Source: an uncultured Spartobacteria bacterium (GTDB lineage Bacteria > Verrucomicrobiota > Verrucomicrobiia > Chthoniobacterales > Chthoniobacteraceae). Taken from it: a stretch of DNA of 64,000 nt. The stretch spans positions 1-64,000 of the forward strand of contig CAIRYQ010000123.1 of NCBI GenBank assembly GCA_903882875.1, read 5' to 3'. Below, piece after piece: positions 42,313-52,040 of the stretch (position 1 is the stretch's first letter; every line of letters starts with the position of its first letter). Below the pieces are notes generated by a model, which worked only from the letters and a program-made list of their open reading frames with translations, was not told where the DNA came from and did no database searches. The position numbers and the translations under genes were made by a program.

Positions 42313-42662
42313 TGGCGTGTGACTTTGCGGGTTTTGAGATCGAGCGCGTATTTTTCCCCGCGCTCATTTGTGATCAGCAGCGTGTCGTCCTTCGCGACGA
42401 GCGCCGTGATGAAGACATCCTGCACGTCGCGCTCGAGTTCCGGGTTCACGCGCACTTCGTAGATGCGCACGCGCCACAGCTCCTTGCCCGAGCTGATGCC
42501 CTTCACGACGACGAACCCCATCGCATCGTGCGGCGCGGAGTATTCGACTCCTTTGATCACGATGGGCGCGACGTCGGCCGGTGCCGACCGCTTTGCGAAG
42601 ACCGGCGCAATCCCGCCGAGAAGAACAGCGCAGAAAGCCAGCAATGCGGATGTTCTATTCAT
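42309..42662 (-). CDS. Small exported protein of unknown function
   Basis: The product is 117 residues from ATG 42662. A signal peptide covers about 1-23 (ALLAFCAVLLGGIAPVFA). The remainder is a beta-rich domain with VAPIVIKGVEYSAPHDAMGF and a repeated short pattern ending in NERGEKYALDLKTRKVT. I do not recognise the family. It overlaps the VIT/VWA gene upstream by 8 bases and the rhodanese gene downstream by 4, so the three products are likely made together and may act on the same periplasmic target. Confidence 0.7.
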   Translation of the reverse strand: MNRTSALLAFCAVLLGGIAPVFAKRSAPADVAPIVIKGVEYSAPHDAMGFVVVKGISSGKELWRVRIYEVRVNPELERDVQDVFITALVAKDDTLLITNERGEKYALDLKTRKVTRQ

Positions 42663-45027
42663 AGACTTCGTAGAGTTCGGTTCCGATGGTGAACCGCACG
42701 TTGCGTCCGAGTGCGAGCCACTGTGCGGCCTCGGGTTTGCTGGTGAGCAGGTCGAAGTATTCCTTCGAGGCAAACTGCACGCGGTTGCGCTTCGCGTCCG
42801 CCTTCACGGACTGCACGTCCGTGTCGCTCCAGTCCGCGCCGTTTTGAGTGAATGCCTTGCCATTCACCCAGCGTGTCTCCTGCTCGATGTTACCGAGCTT
42901 GCTCTGCACTTCGCCGGCGGTGCCGCGCAGCCTTGCCGCGGATTTTCCGACATAGCCGCCAGGGCCGCCAGCAGCGCCCGCGCCCACCGCGGACACATCG
43001 CCCGGCGCGGCATTGCCGGCGATCACCCCGCCAAAGTTTTCCGAGCGCGCCTTTTCCAACGCGACGGCCGGAGCATCCGCCGACTTCAGCGAAAGATTCC
43101 CGCGTCCGTTGAGCGCGCCGTCGTAGCCGTCCTTCTTCCCGCTCAGGTCGCCCCAGCTCTTGCGGTAAAACGACTGCGCCTCCGCATTTTGATCGAGCAT
43201 CTGGAAACTCCGCGCCGCCACCGGCACGCCTCGCCTCGCCTCGTCCTCGACGATGAGATAGCTCGTGTAGGGCGTGACGATGGCGTAGTGCCGCGCAAGC
43301 TCCACGATCTCGTCGCGCAGCTCCTTGTTCTCTCCGCGCAGGCGGATCTCGTCGAGCAGCCAGCCCACACGGCGCAGCGCCCAGAGCTGCGCGATGAATT
43401 CATTGCCCGGTTCGCGTCCGGCAGAAAATTTCACGCGCTGCGCCATGCGCTTCGACTGTCCGTTCAGCGTGCCGTCGAGCACGAGGTCGCCGTCGCCGTC
43501 GCCACTGTAACGGCCCGCGAGCACAAGCTGGTCGCCGCGAAAAAGATCGGGCAGCGGATTCGGGTAGAGTTTCGTGACCTTCACGCCCGCCGGGAAATCC
43601 AGGTGGAGGTTCGTGAGCAGCGGCTCTTTGATTTTGGAAAAGAACGCAGAGACCTTCACCTCAATGTCCTCCTCCGGCAGGACGAATTGCGTCGCCGCAC
43701 GCGTGCGCTCGGCGATCTTGTCGAGCAGGTGCGTGTTGATGTCCGTGCCTATGCCGAAGCAGAAAATCCGCGTCGTGCTCGCCTGATCCGGCGCGACGCG
43801 GGCGACGAGACGCTCCTCGTCCGTCTCGCCGATCGTCGGCTTGCCGTCCGTGAGAAACACGATGACGAAAGGCCGCGAGTTGCCCGCGGGCTTGAGCTTC
43901 AGCGAACGTTCGAGCGCATCCGCGATTGCCGTCCCGCCAATGGGTTTCAGGCTCTGGATGAACTCCTGTGCCTTGTCGCGGTTCGCCTTCGAAGCTTCGG
44001 CGAGCTTTTCAAAGAACGGCTCGGCCTCCGTCGAAAACCGCACCAGCTCGAAGCGGTCGGTGTCGTTCAGATTTTCGACACAGAACGCCATCGCCTTCTT
44101 GAGTTGATCGAGTTTTTTGCCGGCCATCGAGCCGCTCGTGTCCATCACGAATACAACATCCTTCGGATTCACGTCCTTCGATTTCATCACAGCCGCGCCG
44201 GGCGATGCGAGCAGCAGGAACCAGCCGTCCTCGCCCTCTTTCTTGTGCGTGAGCAGATGCACGCCGACCTCGGTGTTGGCGGTCGAGTAGAGCAGTTGAA
44301 AATCCGTGTCAGGCCGCGCATTCGACGCCTCCCACCCGACGACTGCGCGCTTCTCGCCATCACGCTTGATCTCCACGGAATGCGACGGCGAGTAGAGCGC
44401 CTTGATGGGCGCGTCCTGATCGATCGTCACGCGCATAGAGACCGTCTTGAGCGGCTGCGCGGAAAATTTCTCCGTGTTCAGCGGATAGAGGTACGTCGCG
44501 ATGCCGCCGTCCACTTTCAGCAGCTCCGTGTAAGCGAGCGTCACCTTTTTCCGCGAGTGCGGCTCGATGGGAAAGATGCGCACGCGGAACGCCGCGCGGC
44601 CGGTGTATTCGAGCAGCGCGGGATCCTTCTGCCGCCTCACGATGTCCTCGTAAATCGCGCGCGCCTTGCCTGCATCGAGCAGCTCGGCCTCCATGTCCTT
44701 GCCACCGATCTGCATCGTGAACTTGTCGAGATACGCGCCCTTCGGAATCGGGAAAATGTATTCGCCCTCGAGGTTCGTGTCGTTCGGATTGAAGAACTCC
44801 TGCTCGACGCGCGTGACCGATTTCTGCCCGGTGATCTCCACATCCACCTTGTGAAACGCGACCTCCAGCGGCGCGAAGACGTAGTGCGGCGGCGGCATCG
44901 GACGATGCGGCGGAAATGGCGGATGCGGAAACGGCGGCGGATTGTGGATGATGATGAACCCGTCGGCACGCGCGCCACCGGCGAGCGCAACAAGTGCCAA
45001 GAGCCCGGCGAGGAATTTTGCTTTCAT
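42655..45027 (-). CDS. VIT plus VWA domain exported protein
   Basis: The product is 790 residues with a signal peptide (about 1-21). A striking His/Pro-rich segment follows (NPPPFPHPPFPPHRPMPPPH, about 29-48). The VIT domain (about 55-185) has NPNDTNLEGEYIFPIPKGA and IYEDIVRRQKDPALLEY. The VWA domain has a complete MIDAS, DTSGS starting at Asp296, with TDGKP later. The C-terminal third includes a Gly/Ala-rich linker (GAGAAGGPGGYVGKSAA). No sortase signal or C-terminal membrane helix is present. Family members act in surface complexes and adhesion; the partner is unknown here. Confidence 0.9.
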   Translation of the reverse strand: MKAKFLAGLLALVALAGGARADGFIIIHNPPPFPHPPFPPHRPMPPPHYVFAPLEVAFHKVDVEITGQKSVTRVEQEFFNPNDTNLEGEYIFPIPKGAYLDKFTMQIGGKDMEAELLDAGKARAIYEDIVRRQKDPALLEYTGRAAFRVRIFPIEPHSRKKVTLAYTELLKVDGGIATYLYPLNTEKFSAQPLKTVSMRVTIDQDAPIKALYSPSHSVEIKRDGEKRAVVGWEASNARPDTDFQLLYSTANTEVGVHLLTHKKEGEDGWFLLLASPGAAVMKSKDVNPKDVVFVMDTSGSMAGKKLDQLKKAMAFCVENLNDTDRFELVRFSTEAEPFFEKLAEASKANRDKAQEFIQSLKPIGGTAIADALERSLKLKPAGNSRPFVIVFLTDGKPTIGETDEERLVARVAPDQASTTRIFCFGIGTDINTHLLDKIAERTRAATQFVLPEEDIEVKVSAFFSKIKEPLLTNLHLDFPAGVKVTKLYPNPLPDLFRGDQLVLAGRYSGDGDGDLVLDGTLNGQSKRMAQRVKFSAGREPGNEFIAQLWALRRVGWLLDEIRLRGENKELRDEIVELARHYAIVTPYTSYLIVEDEARRGVPVAARSFQMLDQNAEAQSFYRKSWGDLSGKKDGYDGALNGRGNLSLKSADAPAVALEKARSENFGGVIAGNAAPGDVSAVGAGAAGGPGGYVGKSAARLRGTAGEVQSKLGNIEQETRWVNGKAFTQNGADWSDTDVQSVKADAKRNRVQFASKEYFDLLTSKPEAAQWLALGRNVRFTIGTELYEVYE

Positions 45028-45142: not shown

Positions 45143-48100
45143 CTACTTTTTCACATGCAGCACACCGCGCATGATGAGGTGATGGCCGGGGAACGAGCAC
45201 ACGTACGGGTAGTCGCCGGGCGGCTCGGGCGCGATGAAGTCCACGACTTCCTCCTTGCCGTGATCGAGCAGCTTCGTGTGCCAGACGATGTCGTAACTCT
45301 CGGGGATGAAGCCGACATCGAAGCCTTTCGCACCGAGCGCGATTGCCTTTTCGCCGACGGCGTCAGCCTTGCCGGGTTTCACAAGGAGCATGTTGTGCGG
45401 CATGAAGTCCTGATTCGCAAACGTGAGCCGGATCTTCTTGCCGGATTTCACGGTGAGTTCCTTCACGTCGTAGCTCATCTTTTCCGGGATGGTCGCGATG
45501 CGGATGGTGGTGAGTTCGGACGTGTCGGAGAGGATGCCCGACTTTTTCCCGGCGACCTCGGCGGCTTCGGCGATGACGCCGCCGCGCAACGAGGACTCCA
45601 CGTTGAACCACAGGTGCTGCACCGTATTCGCGGCGATGCGCGCGTGCGGCTCGGGTGATTTGAGGAGCTGGCCGAGCAGTTCGACATTCCGCACGTTGTG
45701 CTGCTGGTGAATCCAGAGCGCTTCGAGCAGATGGTGCGCGTCCTCCTTCTTGTTCGGATCGAACTGCTTCATCCACGTCTGCGTCGCGGCGATGACTTCC
45801 CCGGAGTCGCGTCCGCTGAGTTCGATGTGTGTGCGGTGGCGGATGCCGTCCACGGGGTTCTTCAAATTTTCCAACAGCGCGGGGATCGGCTGGCCGGCGA
45901 TGGCGACGGGCTTTTGCAGCGGGCGGTCAATCGCGGTGATGCGGTAGATGCGGCCGTGCGCGTGATCGCGGTTGGGGTCGCGCACGTTGTGCTGCATGTG
46001 GCCGATGATCACGTTCTGCCAGTCGCTCACGTAGAGCGCGCCGTCCGCGCCGAACTTGATGTCGGACGGCCGGAAATTCTTGTCGCCGCTCATGAGGAAG
46101 CCGCGCGATTTTTCCTCGCTCTTGCTGCCGTCGGCATTCGTCACGGTGACGCTCAGTTCGTCGCCGTCCGGCTCGCCCCACACCGCGCCGGTGTCGGGAT
46201 TGCGGTCAAGGTGATATTGCTTAATGCCGAGGAAGCCGATGACGTTGCAGATCAAAAAGTCGCCCTGCATTTTCTCCGGAAAATGCGCGCTCGAGAGGAT
46301 GCCGCTCGAGGTGACGGGCCGGACTTCCTTCTTCAAAAGCTCGTGCATCTTGAAGCCGCTGCCCTCGGGCCGCACCTGATATGCGCGGCCGCCGGTGCCG
46401 TCGGTGGCGTAGTGATAGCCCCAGTAGTCGAACGAGATTCCGTGCGGGTTCGGCGAGTTCCCCGCGTGCATCGAGATGGTGAAGCGGCGCGGGTCGAAGC
46501 GGTACATCGCGCTCGCGCCGCTCTGCAGAGACGGGCCCCACGGGTGCTCGTGGTTGTGCTGCATGAAGACACCGCTCTGCCAGTAGATCGCGCCGTCGGG
46601 CCCGTAGATGAGGTTGTTCGCGCCGTGGTGCGTGTCAGACGAGTCGAGGCCGTGGAGCAGCGGGATGCGGATATCGGCCACGCCGTCGCCCTTCGAGTCC
46701 TTGAGGAAAAGGATCTCGGACATGCAGGTGACGATCACGCCACCGTTCCAGAACTCGAAGCCGAGCGGATTCTGCACCTTCGCAAATTCCGTGACGCGAT
46801 CGGCTTTTCCGTCGCCATCATCGTCGTGAAAAATGAGGATTGCGTCGTCCATTTTTTTCAGCGGTTCCCATTTCGGATACGTCGGCCACACGGCGGCCCA
46901 GATGCGGCCCTTCGCGTCCACCTGCATCTGCACGGGCTTCACGAGCTGCGGGAATTTTTTCTCGTCGGCAAAAAGGTTCACCTTGAAGCCCTTCGCGACT
47001 GCCATGTGTTTGATCGCCTCCTCGCCGTCGAGGTAGTTCAGCACGCCTTCCTTCATGGCGCTCGAGCTCTTGCTCTTGCCGCCGACATTCGAGATCACAG
47101 GAATGGGTGCGGGCACGTTGCTGTCGTCCACTTTCTTGTCCTTGCCCGTCGCTCGCGCCCAGATGCGCTCGTCGCGGTTTGCGGTCATCACGTCGAGCAT
47201 CTTCAGCTCATGCTGGAGGACGACGGCATTCGTCTGGCCGTCCACGAAGCTCAGCGTCGAGCGGCCGCCCCACACGTCGTTGCCATCGGAAGCGTGGTAG
47301 CGGTTGTGCCAGTGCATGTCCTTGTCGAGCACCGCCTCGCGCAGCGGATCGAGCGAAGGCGATGAGCTGACCTGTTTGCCGAGCAGCGCCTCTGCGATCA
47401 CTTCGCCGAGCTGGCGGTTGCCGTCCTCGGTGAGATGCACGCCGTTGATCGTGAGCGGCGTCTTCGCGTTTTTGAAAAGCTCAAGCGACGGATGGAACAG
47501 ATCCACAAACGCGACGCCCGCTTCCTTCGCCGCGGCCTCGGTGGCTTTCGTGTAGGCTTCGAGCTGCGCGTTGTGCGCCTTGCCGTCGGGGACGTTTGGG
47601 TTGTGCGTGTCCTCGTGCGCGATGGGGCTGAAGAGCACGATGCGCGGGAAGTCCTTGCCGTTCGCCTTCGAGCCACGCGTTTTTTTCACGAAGTCCACGA
47701 GCTTCTTCTTATGCTCGTCGGCCTTCTCGATGCCCGCAAACGATTCGTTGTAGCCGAAGAATCCGAACACGACATCGGCCTTAACGAGTTGCAAATACGC
47801 GGTCATCGAAATCTGCCCGCTGCTGCGCGGGAACGAATCGGGCCGGTCGCCGCTGGTGCTCATGTTGCGCAAGCGCACCTGCTGATCCGGCAGCGCGCTC
47901 TGGAGCAAAGTTTCCATCCAGCCATCGTGCTGCATGCGGTCGGGCAGGCCGTTTCCGAGGATTGCGACGATATCGCCTTTCCTGAACGCAAACGGCGCAG
48001 GGTCGCGGTAGTCCGCAGGCACATCGGCGAGCGCCGGCTCCTTGGACGCCGCCGCAGGCTTCTTTCCGTCGTTCTTCGCGGTCTTCGCACCGCCCGCTGC

Positions 48101-49693
48101 GGGCACGCCGGGCTTTCCTCCGTAGGTGAGGTAGGTCAGTTTGCCGCCGCCTTTCACATCAATCTCCATCGCCTCCGGCGCGGCCACCTTCGTGATTTTG
48201 AAAACTTCCTTCCGCTCCGCATCAAGTAGCGTGAGCGAGAATCCATCGAGCCTGCTCTCGAATCCGCTGCGATTCCACACGCCGATTTTTTCGACATCCA
48301 CCGCGCTGCCGAGATCGAGTTCCCACCAGGGTTGCGTCGAGCCCGAATTCGTCGTGTGCGTCTGCCCGCCCTTGCCCCAGTCGGGACTCTTGTTGCCGTC
48401 AATCGCCTTCTCCGCAGTGCCGCTGCCGTTCGTGCTCGACTGCGTGGCCTTGCCGCCGCGCGCCACATTTTTTCCACCGCTGATCACCTCGACTTCCGCG
48501 AGCGTGAGGATGCGCTTGTCACCCGGCAGTTCGATGCGGACAAAGCGCGCGGGCCTGCCCGTGACGAGCGGCGCATTCGCCGGCTCGACGGGCTTCGCCG
48601 CCGCGTCCTTTTTCTCATCCTGCTTCGCCGCCTTGTCGCCCTTGGCGCCGTCCTTCTTGTCGTCCTTTTTCTTCTCCGGCTTCGCATCGCCCTTCGTGTT
48701 GTCATTCGCCGGGATCGGGCTTTCGAAGCCCGCATACATCTCCGGCTTGATGCCGCGCGCATACGCACCGCCACCAAAGGTGTTTGGCTTGAATGGCCCG
48801 ACGAACGCGATGTTCAGATCGGGCGTGATTTTGTCCTCAATGCCGAGCGCCCACAGGCATCCGTTCACGATCAGCCGGCGATAGCCGTCGTTCGTGATGT
48901 CCTCCGACGTGCCGTAGAGCGACGTGAAGGCGCGCGCGGATTTTCCATTCGCCGCCTTGTAAGTGCGCGTCCATTCCGAAGGCTGCGGCGGCTTCGTCGC
49001 GTCGGCGGGCGAATCTGGCGTCATGCCGTTCAACGGCTGCGCCATCGTGAGAATCTCACCATCGGTCGGCTTGCCCACATAGCCGCCCGCCTGCACCCAC
49101 ACATCCTTCACGCCGCACAGAATCGGATGCGACGTCTTCTCCGGCACGATGCTGATGCGTGTGCTCTGCTTGTGGTTCTGTCCGTAGTGCCCCACCCAAG
49201 TCTGCCCGAGCACCTGGTGCCCGAAGCCCAGCTCATAACCGGCGACCTTGCTGTTATAGGAATATTTCGCAAACGGATCATCCGCGCCCGTCTTGAAGCC
49301 GTGCGTCGCCGTGCGCATCCCGATCACCGGCCCGCCGCGTTTCAGATAGTCGTCGAAGTGCTGCATCTGCTCCTTCGGGAAATTTTGAAAGCGCAGGAAA
49401 ACCACCGCGAGATCAGCGCTGTCGAGCGCCTCCATGCCCGGCATGTTCTGCGGCTCGCCCGCGGCGATGTTGCCGTCCTTATCAATGTCAAACAGCACCG
49501 TGCATTTGAACCCCTGATGCTTCGCGAGAATCCGCGCGAGTTCCGGCAGCGATTCCTCCGAGCGATACTCGTGATCGCCTGCGAGAAAGACGATGTGCTT
49601 CCCTTTTCCGGGCCCGTCAGTGCCCTGGTAAACGAGCGGTGCGGCGGTCGCGACACTCGCGAGCGAGAAAATGGTGAGCAGGATGCGTTTCAT
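45143..49693 (-). CDS. Giant exported protein: ThuA, discoidin-like, SGNH, PVC dehydrogenase and azurin-like domains
   Basis: The product is 1516 residues from ATG 49693, with a signal peptide (1-18). Modules in order are a ThuA-like domain (about 30-300, [20 protein letters not shown]), a Lys/Asp-rich linker (329-374), an F5/8C-like domain (378-518, [20 protein letters not shown]), an SGNH-like domain (561-776, [15 protein letters not shown]), a propeller of the PVC dehydrogenase type (895-1264, [20 protein letters not shown]) and an azurin-like domain (1402-1516). Likely copper ligands are H1433, C1499, H1504 and M1508, with the same spacing as azurin (46, 112, 117, 121). It may degrade and oxidise a sugar in one protein. 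No CxxCH motif was found. Confidence 0.9.
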
Positions 49694-50128: not shown

Positions 50129-51088
50129 ATGTCCACTCAACTCGATCAGCTCAAGCAACTCACCAAAGTCGTCGCCGACACGGGCGATTTTGAATCCATG
50201 AAGGCCTACAAGCCGCAGGACGCGACGACGAATCCCTCGCTCATCCTCGCCGCCGCCTCAAAGCCGGAGTATGCGCCGCTCGTGGACAAGGCGGTCGCGG
50301 ATCGCAAGGGCAGCGGCCTCACCGGCGCGAAGCAGGTGGACGATGTGGTGGACCACATCCTCGTGAACTTCGGCCTCGAAATCCTCAAAATCGTCCCCGG
50401 TCGCGTGAGCACGGAGACGGACGCGCGCCTGTCGTTCGACACAGCAGGCTCGATCGCGAAGGGCCGCCAGCTCATCGGGATTTACGAGAAAAACGGCATC
50501 AGCCGTGATCGTGTGCTGATCAAAATCGCAAGCACATGGGAAGGCATCAAGGCCGCCGAGGTGCTGGAAAAGGAAGGCATCCACTGCAACCTCACGCTCC
50601 TCTTTTCGCTCGCGCAGGCCGTGGCGTGCGCCGAGGGCGGCATCCAGCTCATCTCGCCGTTCGTCGGGCGCATTCTCGATTGGTTCAAGGCGAGCACAAA
50701 GAAGGATTACGCGCCGACGGAAGATCCCGGCGTGGTGTCGGTGACGCAGATCTACAACTACTACAAAAAGTTCGGCCACAAGACCGAGGTGATGGGTGCG
50801 AGCTTCCGCAACAAGGGCGAGATCACCGAACTCGCGGGCTGCGACCTTCTCACGATCAGCCCCGCGCTGCTCGGCGAACTCCAGGCGAGCACCGACCCGC
50901 TCACGCGCAAGCTTGACGCCGTCGCAGCGCAGAAGCTGGACATCGCGAAGCGCCACTACGACGAGAAGACGTTCCGTTACGAACTGAACGACGACGCGAT
51001 GGCGACAGAGAAGACGGCGGACGGCATCCGCAAATTCGCCGTGGACATCGTGAAGCTCGAGGCGCTCGTGGCCGCGAAGCTCAGGTAA
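50129..51088 (+). CDS. tal: Transaldolase (TalB type)
   Basis: The product is 319 residues, the size of the TalB subfamily. The Schiff-base Lys132 lies in [18 protein letters not shown]. Other family motifs are [18 protein letters not shown] near the start and [30 protein letters not shown] and [10 protein letters not shown]. It exchanges dihydroxyacetone units between sugar phosphates in the pentose phosphate pathway. Its 5' frame is open to 49907, but the first 74 codons are not conserved. A terminator follows 6 bases after the stop. Confidence 0.96.
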
Positions 51089-51167: not shown

Positions 51168-52040
51168 TCACTCCACGAACTCCAGCGGGCCGAGTTCCGG
51201 GACGAAGCCGAGCTGCTGGCCGCGGCCGAGGAATTCGCGGATCGCGGCGCGGCCGGTGCCGCCGTAGTCGAGCGTGTAGTCGTTCACGTACATGCCGATG
51301 AATTTGTCCGCGAGCGTCGTGTCCATGTCGCGTGCGAGCGGCATGGCGTGCGCGACTCCGGCGGCGCGGTGTTCGAGGCCGTAGCGGATGCTCTCGAAAA
51401 GGATGCGGTTGATCTCCGAGCGGTCGGCGGGCGCGAGGTCTTTGCGGATGACGTTGCCGCCTAACGGGAGCGGATAGCCGGTTTCTGTTTTCCACCACGC
51501 GCCGAGGTCGAGCACGAGGTCGAAGCCGTCGCGCGCATACGTGAGCTGGCCCTCGTGGATGATGAGGCCGACGTCCGCATTTCCCCCGGAGATGAAATCG
51601 AAAATCTGATCGAACGGCACGACGGTGTGGATCGGTTCGCCGAGGAGGAAAAGTTTCAGTGCGAGGAATGCGCTCGTCATTTTCCCCGGCACGGCGATGC
51701 GCTGGTGGCCGAGCCAGTCGCGGATCGCGCCGAAGTCGCTGAGGTCCGGCAGCGCCTTGCCGCGGCGGACGATGAGCATCGGGCCGTAGCCGTCGCCCAT
51801 GCTCGCGCCGCAGGGGAGCAGCGCGTATTTGTCCGCGACGTGCGCGTAGGCGTGGATGCTGATGGCCGAGATGTGCAGCTCGCCGCGCGTGGCACGCTCG
51901 TTGAGCGTCTGGATGTCCTGCAGGATGTGCTCGAAGCGCCAGCGGCCCGTGGGGATTTTTCCCTCGGCAAGCGCGAAGAACATGAAGGCGTCGTCCGGAT
52001 CGGGCGAGTGGCCGAGGGTGAGACTGAAGGAGTCGGACAT
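51168..52040 (-). CDS. mqnD: 1,4-dihydroxy-6-naphthoate synthase of the futalosine menaquinone pathway
   Basis: The product is 290 residues. The start LTLGHSPDPDDAFMFFALAE is diagnostic for MqnD. It is followed by ISAISIHAYAHVADKYALL, PCGASMGDGYGPMLIVRRGK and GGNADVGLIIHEGQLTY, all in a periplasmic-binding-protein-like fold. It converts cyclic dehypoxanthinyl futalosine to 1,4-dihydroxy-6-naphthoate. Presence of MqnD means the organism makes menaquinone by the futalosine route; other mqn genes are not in the window. It is a single gene, convergent with transaldolase. Confidence 0.95.
   Translation of the reverse strand: MSDSFSLTLGHSPDPDDAFMFFALAEGKIPTGRWRFEHILQDIQTLNERATRGELHISAISIHAYAHVADKYALLPCGASMGDGYGPMLIVRRGKALPDLSDFGAIRDWLGHQRIAVPGKMTSAFLALKLFLLGEPIHTVVPFDQIFDFISGGNADVGLIIHEGQLTYARDGFDLVLDLGAWWKTETGYPLPLGGNVIRKDLAPADRSEINRILFESIRYGLEHRAAGVAHAMPLARDMDTTLADKFIGMYVNDYTLDYGGTGRAAIREFLGRGQQLGFVPELGPLEFVE

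Follow-up and report, generated by a model that had tools for sequence, protein, structure and literature searches.

A 1516-residue exported propeller protein with a C-terminal cupredoxin, a copper-tailed variant of the PVC propeller-cytochrome family

The minus-strand gene at 45143-49693 of the analyzed window (the whole stretch of 64,000 nucleotides from an uncultured Spartobacteria bacterium, contig CAIRYQ010000123.1) encodes a copper-tailed variant within the PVC propeller-cytochrome family. On balance, the product is taken to be a carbohydrate-active oxidoreductase that is exported, belongs to the PVC propeller-cytochrome type (DUF7133/TIGR02604), and uses a C-terminal type-1 copper domain as its electron outlet. 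The predicted outlet role of the copper domain is well supported by the tails of related proteins, and we infer the direction of electron flow. The features of the gene are as follows.

45143..49693, minus, whole gene, 1516 aa plus stop (open reading frame and single-frame orthologues)
49640..49693, minus, putative signal peptide, residues ~1-18 (read by eye from the sequence)
48734..49636, minus, ThuA-like module, residues ~20-320 (Pfam PF06283)
48494..48661, minus, Lys/Ala/Asp-rich linker, residues 345-400, with the lowest conservation of the chain (sequence and orthologue alignment)
48059..48490, minus, F5/8C galactose-binding-like module, residues 402-545 (Pfam PF22633, PF00754)
47324..47998, minus, SGNH-like module, residues 566-790, without catalytic Ser and Asp (Pfam PF13472)
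45914..47035, minus, DUF7133/TIGR02604 beta-propeller, residues 887-1260 (Pfam/NCBIfam, AlphaFold model, structural matches)
45599..45901, minus, HEAT-like helical module, residues 1265-1365 (helices in the AlphaFold model; HEAT_2 match in the relative L086)
45524..45598, minus, flexible junction, residues 1366-1390, site of tail change among relatives (model and alignments)
45146..45514, minus, cupredoxin domain, residues 1394-1516 (Pfam PF00127, family profile, fold match)
45395..45397, minus, copper ligand H1433 (sequence and alignments)
45197..45199, minus, copper ligand C1499 (sequence and alignments)
45182..45184, minus, copper ligand H1504 (sequence and alignments)
45170..45172, minus, copper ligand M1508 (sequence and alignments)

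Reading frame, spread of the architecture, and gene neighborhood

The preliminary description had given the right coordinates and left the strand unstated. The frame runs on the minus strand from an ATG at 49693 to a stop at 45143 without an internal stop, there is no N in the window, and third-position GC is 0.78 to 0.89 across the entire 1516-residue frame, as for one coding frame. The plus-strand reading of the same interval contained stops and was rejected as the gene. The product was, as described earlier, one intact exported chain with the ThuA, F5/8C, SGNH-like, propeller, and cupredoxin modules in this order (Pfam/NCBIfam matches and orthologues); a sixth module, the HEAT-like helices in the interval between the propeller and the copper domain, had been missed. 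A promoter scan found nothing.

Relatives were scanned with one genome per species, and the best 80 of at least 532 encoding stretches were retained. The search for the same module order in other PVC genomes, which had been proposed as a check, was positive: among the best 80, all five modules without heme were present in 29 complete single frames and the five modules plus a C-terminal CxxCH in 20, 7 had no ThuA in frame, and 5 had no ThuA and carried heme. These orthologues came from Verrucomicrobiota and Planctomycetota, with two under Proteobacteria titles, and many of the record titles denote MAGs, the taxonomy of which may be wrong. Because of the many complete orthologues across Verrucomicrobiota and Planctomycetota, the predicted five-module architecture is a conserved orthologous protein and no singleton.

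The frame is not an error, since complete single-frame orthologues share its module order, and the joining of genes by a sequencing error, once named as the danger to the five-module reading, was thereby ruled out. ThuA forms its own frame in some relatives (G003 and L213) and the modules can thus exist apart, but a sequencing or binning artefact fusing separate genes is barely credible against the identical order in the 29 complete orthologues of 1490 to 1685 aa, the 20 more with an added heme domain, and two orthologues from Verrucomicrobium sp. BvORR034 and BvORR106, the record titles of which bear no MAG label. In L075 (G003:C347) and L213, ~4.4 kb of the contig separates the ThuA frame from the frame that encodes F5/8C, SGNH, and propeller, the fusion being split or interrupted there.

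Such a cupredoxin was encoded in 67 of 387 genomes sampled evenly from Verrucomicrobiota, and in 22 of these 67, the source genome included, it lay inside an open frame of at least 900 residues. Mean conservation in the orthologue alignment was 0.80 to 0.85 for the propeller, HEAT, SGNH, and ThuA modules, 0.76 for the cupredoxin, and 0.67 for F5/8C. Five loci (L155, L156, L180, L199, and L220) had a shorter SGNH-propeller-cupredoxin paralogue of ~1070 to 1115 aa in tandem just downstream on the same strand, with a gap after the five-module gene of at most 0.1 kb in four of them and ~0.9 kb in L156.

The gene probably stands alone. A divergent transaldolase-like frame, read by eye, starts near 50130, and a BD-FAE-like esterase is located further along in the window. 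Downstream adjoins a VIT and VWA protein of 790 aa with inter-alpha-trypsin-inhibitor-like architecture (42655-45027, minus), and a VitK2_biosynth (menaquinone biosynthesis) protein is encoded near the locus (51168-52040, minus). Within ~6 kb of the 80 orthologue loci, sulfatase was found at 23, DUF1501 at 12, SASA-type esterase at 7, and PSD/PSCyt proteins at 9 to 12 (PSD/PSCyt3 at 12), all as raw counts without a random-locus control.

The copper domain and its exchange with cytochrome

The C-terminal domain was an azurin/auracyanin-type cupredoxin with the full type-1 copper ligand set, by sequence and by fold match. Ligands H1433, C1499, H1504, and M1508 were found where the preliminary description had placed them, and their azurin spacings of 66, 5, and 4 were confirmed. 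The Copper-bind match scored 40.0 bits (Pfam), the model superposed on the auracyanins 6kol and 2aan with rmsd of 1.6 and 1.7, and in a family-profile search auracyanin A (1.6e-23) scored better than azurins; the azurin equivalog TIGR02695 was not reached (39.7 bits versus a curated cut-off of 105.1). The four ligands were invariant across an alignment of 32 related cupredoxins and retained in 61 to 62 of 62 orthologues, and the pattern H..C-x4-H-x3-M occurred in 121 of 123 propeller-linked cupredoxins. Fold and ligands are shared with auracyanins A and B and azurin, but these are small free proteins, whereas the source cupredoxin closes an exported chain of 1516 residues. A related cupredoxin without a propeller was located near the start of a 578-residue frame (L089:6164-7897, G000:C84).

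PVC-type heme-binding CxxCH proteins (TIGR02604, HEAT, and TIGR02603; e.g., Lac161_ORF7) resemble the source chain in propeller family, HEAT-like helices, and C-terminal position of the redox domain. In contrast to them, the source chain has a cupredoxin tail, additional ThuA, F5/8C, and SGNH-like modules in front, and no C-terminal CxxCH heme domain; inspection of the sequence found no CxxCH motif anywhere in the 1516 residues.

The tails were surveyed within the bacterial family in 57 genomes (source and relatives) with 83 intact SGNH-propeller chains, of which 42 ended in CxxCH, 40 in a cupredoxin, 1 in neither, and 0 in both. In the junction alignment, the bodies stayed in register through the HEAT helices and then continued into a cupredoxin or a cytochrome (Cytochrom_C/CBB3 type). 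The chain at L052 was 75% identical to the source protein over 818-1379, with a propeller up to 87% identical to that of L046, yet it ends in a class-I-like cytochrome c. The same type of cytochrome follows ThuA, F5/8C, SGNH, and propeller in L208, which was nested among copper-only chains in the tree. In the AlphaFold model, pLDDT was below 50 at residues 1365-1383, consistent with a tether there.

A third tail state was present in the wider set, in which a TIGR02603 heme domain, unlike the replacing cytochrome domain, comes after the cupredoxin; in L168, for example, Copper-bind covers 1393-1503 and the TIGR02603 heme domain 1543-1675. The dual-tail orthologues (L168, L161, L163, L178, L204, L230, and others) were 1385 to 1958 aa long, with copper and heme domains fused in one chain as a putative copper-to-heme relay, and all Planctomycetota copies with a visible tail had this form. 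The body tree of the SGNH-propeller chains required at least 4 tail changes (the starred branches alone also force 4) and the three-state tree at least 8, counts that are estimates from quick trees with some weak branches and may comprise gains or losses.

The proposal that the copper domain works without a separate cytochrome stands for the source chain only: of the 89 tree rows whose tail is known, 31 pair copper with heme. The proposed electron-transfer role of the copper domain is supported, because in close relatives it is replaced by cytochrome c or followed by a heme domain. As judged from these alignments, the tail probably serves as an electron outlet that can be swapped, and the swap may have come about when paralogues recombined within their common HEAT region.

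Front modules, propeller, and possible chemistry

In the protein scan, the ThuA match (PF06283) fell just short of the curated cut-off (31.7 versus 33.4 bits); it exceeded the cut-off in the genome scan (35.6 bits) and in the orthologues L168 and L208 (37.1 and 38.9 bits). The F5/8C-type module scored 36.2 bits (Pfam), and its top PDB sequence match was the F-type lectin FBP32 (1.4e-30). The F-type lectin motif is H-x24-R-x-D-x4-R/K; residues H446, R475, and R481 of the module are conserved among orthologues and resemble the lectin site, but they do not strictly form the motif, because they are spaced differently and the Asp is absent. Polysaccharide binding by the predicted F5/8C module is plausible.

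The SGNH-like module matched Lipase_GDSL_2 with 41.7 bits and lacked the catalytic Ser and Asp of an SGNH/GDSL hydrolase. Of 64 orthologues, 62 had Gly at the nucleophile Ser position 582 and all 64 had Asn in place of the DxxH Asp (position 750); His753 and Asn649 were retained, and no member of the wider family set had Ser, Asp, and His together. The suggestion that this module removes a group therefore finds no support. An active esterase was ruled out on these residues (Ser to Gly, Asp to Asn), though the module may have some other activity; as it is conserved (mean 0.80), it matters, but not through the usual hydrolase chemistry.

The propeller was assigned by DUF7133 (203.6 bits) and TIGR02604 (184.4 bits versus a curated cut-off of 122.2), and its AlphaFold model had a mean pLDDT of 90 and pTM of 0.81. 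Its sugar-dehydrogenase-like fold was borne out by the best structural matches (Z of 23 to 27), which were PQQ sugar dehydrogenases together with domains of AA12 pyranose dehydrogenases and included the PQQ enzymes 3a9g (Z 27.2), 3das (Z 24.4), and 1c9u (Z 23.0). Searching PDB sequences with a propeller profile yielded short repeat matches only and was uninformative. PQQ aldose and glucose dehydrogenases and the AA12 pyranose dehydrogenase of Coprinopsis superpose on the propeller at an identity of only 12 to 20%, and the source chain differs from them by an apparent lack of most PQQ contacts mapped in a partial alignment and by a predicted copper outlet in place of a cytochrome. The Coprinopsis AA12 enzyme also joins its propeller to an electron-transfer domain.

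In the favored oxidoreductase reading, the F5/8C module, perhaps with ThuA and the non-catalytic SGNH module, would hold a glycan or sugar, which the propeller would oxidize or oxidatively cleave. From there the electron would reach the tethered copper, which would hand it to an acceptor, either soluble or in the membrane, or, in the longer relatives, to the fused heme. Oxidation of a sugar, as first suggested, is unproven: the fold match is strong, but three PQQ contacts had no counterpart in the partial YliI alignment. Against this reading also speaks the absence of a sulfatase among the neighbors found in the window. A wider version is possible but tentative, namely a widespread class of PVC carbohydrate oxidoreductases in which one catalytic body, probably without PQQ, has acquired copper, heme, or copper-plus-heme outlets through exchange of domains, possibly for oxidative instead of hydrolytic glycoside cleavage.

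That the propeller acts as a glycoside hydrolase or a lyase with no net redox chemistry, the tail serving for docking, localization, or copper or heme storage, is considered unlikely. In favor of this reading, and against the oxidoreductase, stands Lac161_ORF7, a purified TIGR02604-HEAT-cytochrome protein that acts on lactose and is the only such protein found with a reported activity, described as a hydrolase (Km 1.8 mM) and not an oxidase (PMC5342196). The apparent lack of canonical PQQ contacts agrees with it, as do propeller lactonases and other non-redox propellers, whose match scores (Z near 23) approach those of the sugar dehydrogenases. Left unexplained by a hydrolase or lyase, however, are the three tails, alike only in binding a redox metal, that swap or extend at one junction, and the near-invariance of the four copper ligands.

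A canonical PQQ-dependent sugar dehydrogenase feeding the fused cupredoxin is improbable, despite PQQ enzymes being the top structural matches. The propeller was aligned with E. coli YliI (locus L264) by hhalign only in part (probability 82.6%, 129 columns). In this partial alignment, the Arg of RNPQG corresponds to Pro1081, the second Arg of R-x-R to Ser1210, and the Lys to ~Gly1153, only Asn1082 and Arg1208 remaining of the mapped contacts; no counterpart was found there for R228, K377, and R408 of PQQ glucose dehydrogenase (the Acinetobacter enzyme, 1c9u), which we take to be the PQQ contact positions and the roles of which were applied to the alignment columns. No match to pqqE was found above the cut-off in the source genome, which likewise tells against the favored reading; the pqqC search also matched no control, so its silence does not show absence of PQQ synthesis.

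Inward electron flow, with copper or heme donating to a propeller that reduces the substrate, is very unlikely: nitrous oxide reductase, a reductase joining propeller and cupredoxin, is among the top Foldseek matches, but its superpositions are poor (rmsd ~26, TM 0.17 to 0.19), sugar dehydrogenases fit the propeller far better, and carbohydrate-linked neighbors recur.

Relation to known systems and significance

The literature supports a carbohydrate link: Lac161_ORF7 acts on lactose (PMC5342196), and carbohydrate-binding modules are present in planctomycete cytochrome proteins (PMC5615132, which does not mention azurin or copper). Among the latter, the PSCyt1-3/PSD proteins, like the source protein, combine a PVC redox protein with carbohydrate-binding modules, but their domains are different (PMC5615132). 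No report of the present architecture was found in the open-access literature on cupredoxin/azurin fusions in PVC bacteria. Azurin/auracyanin-type domains are now seen in Planctomycetota; a survey that dropped hits of more than 200 residues had blamed its single Planctomycetota azurin hit on contamination or wrong annotation (PMC8779525).

The 5.8-Mb source genome (G000) contained 58 TIGR02604 and 23 ThuA matches, so that propeller dehydrogenase-like proteins are greatly expanded in it. PVC genomes encode dozens of propeller-cytochrome proteins, which may have a part in glycan breakdown (PMC5615132). Copper and cytochrome tails occur on nearly identical bodies and therefore provide matched pairs for a direct test of the role of the tail.
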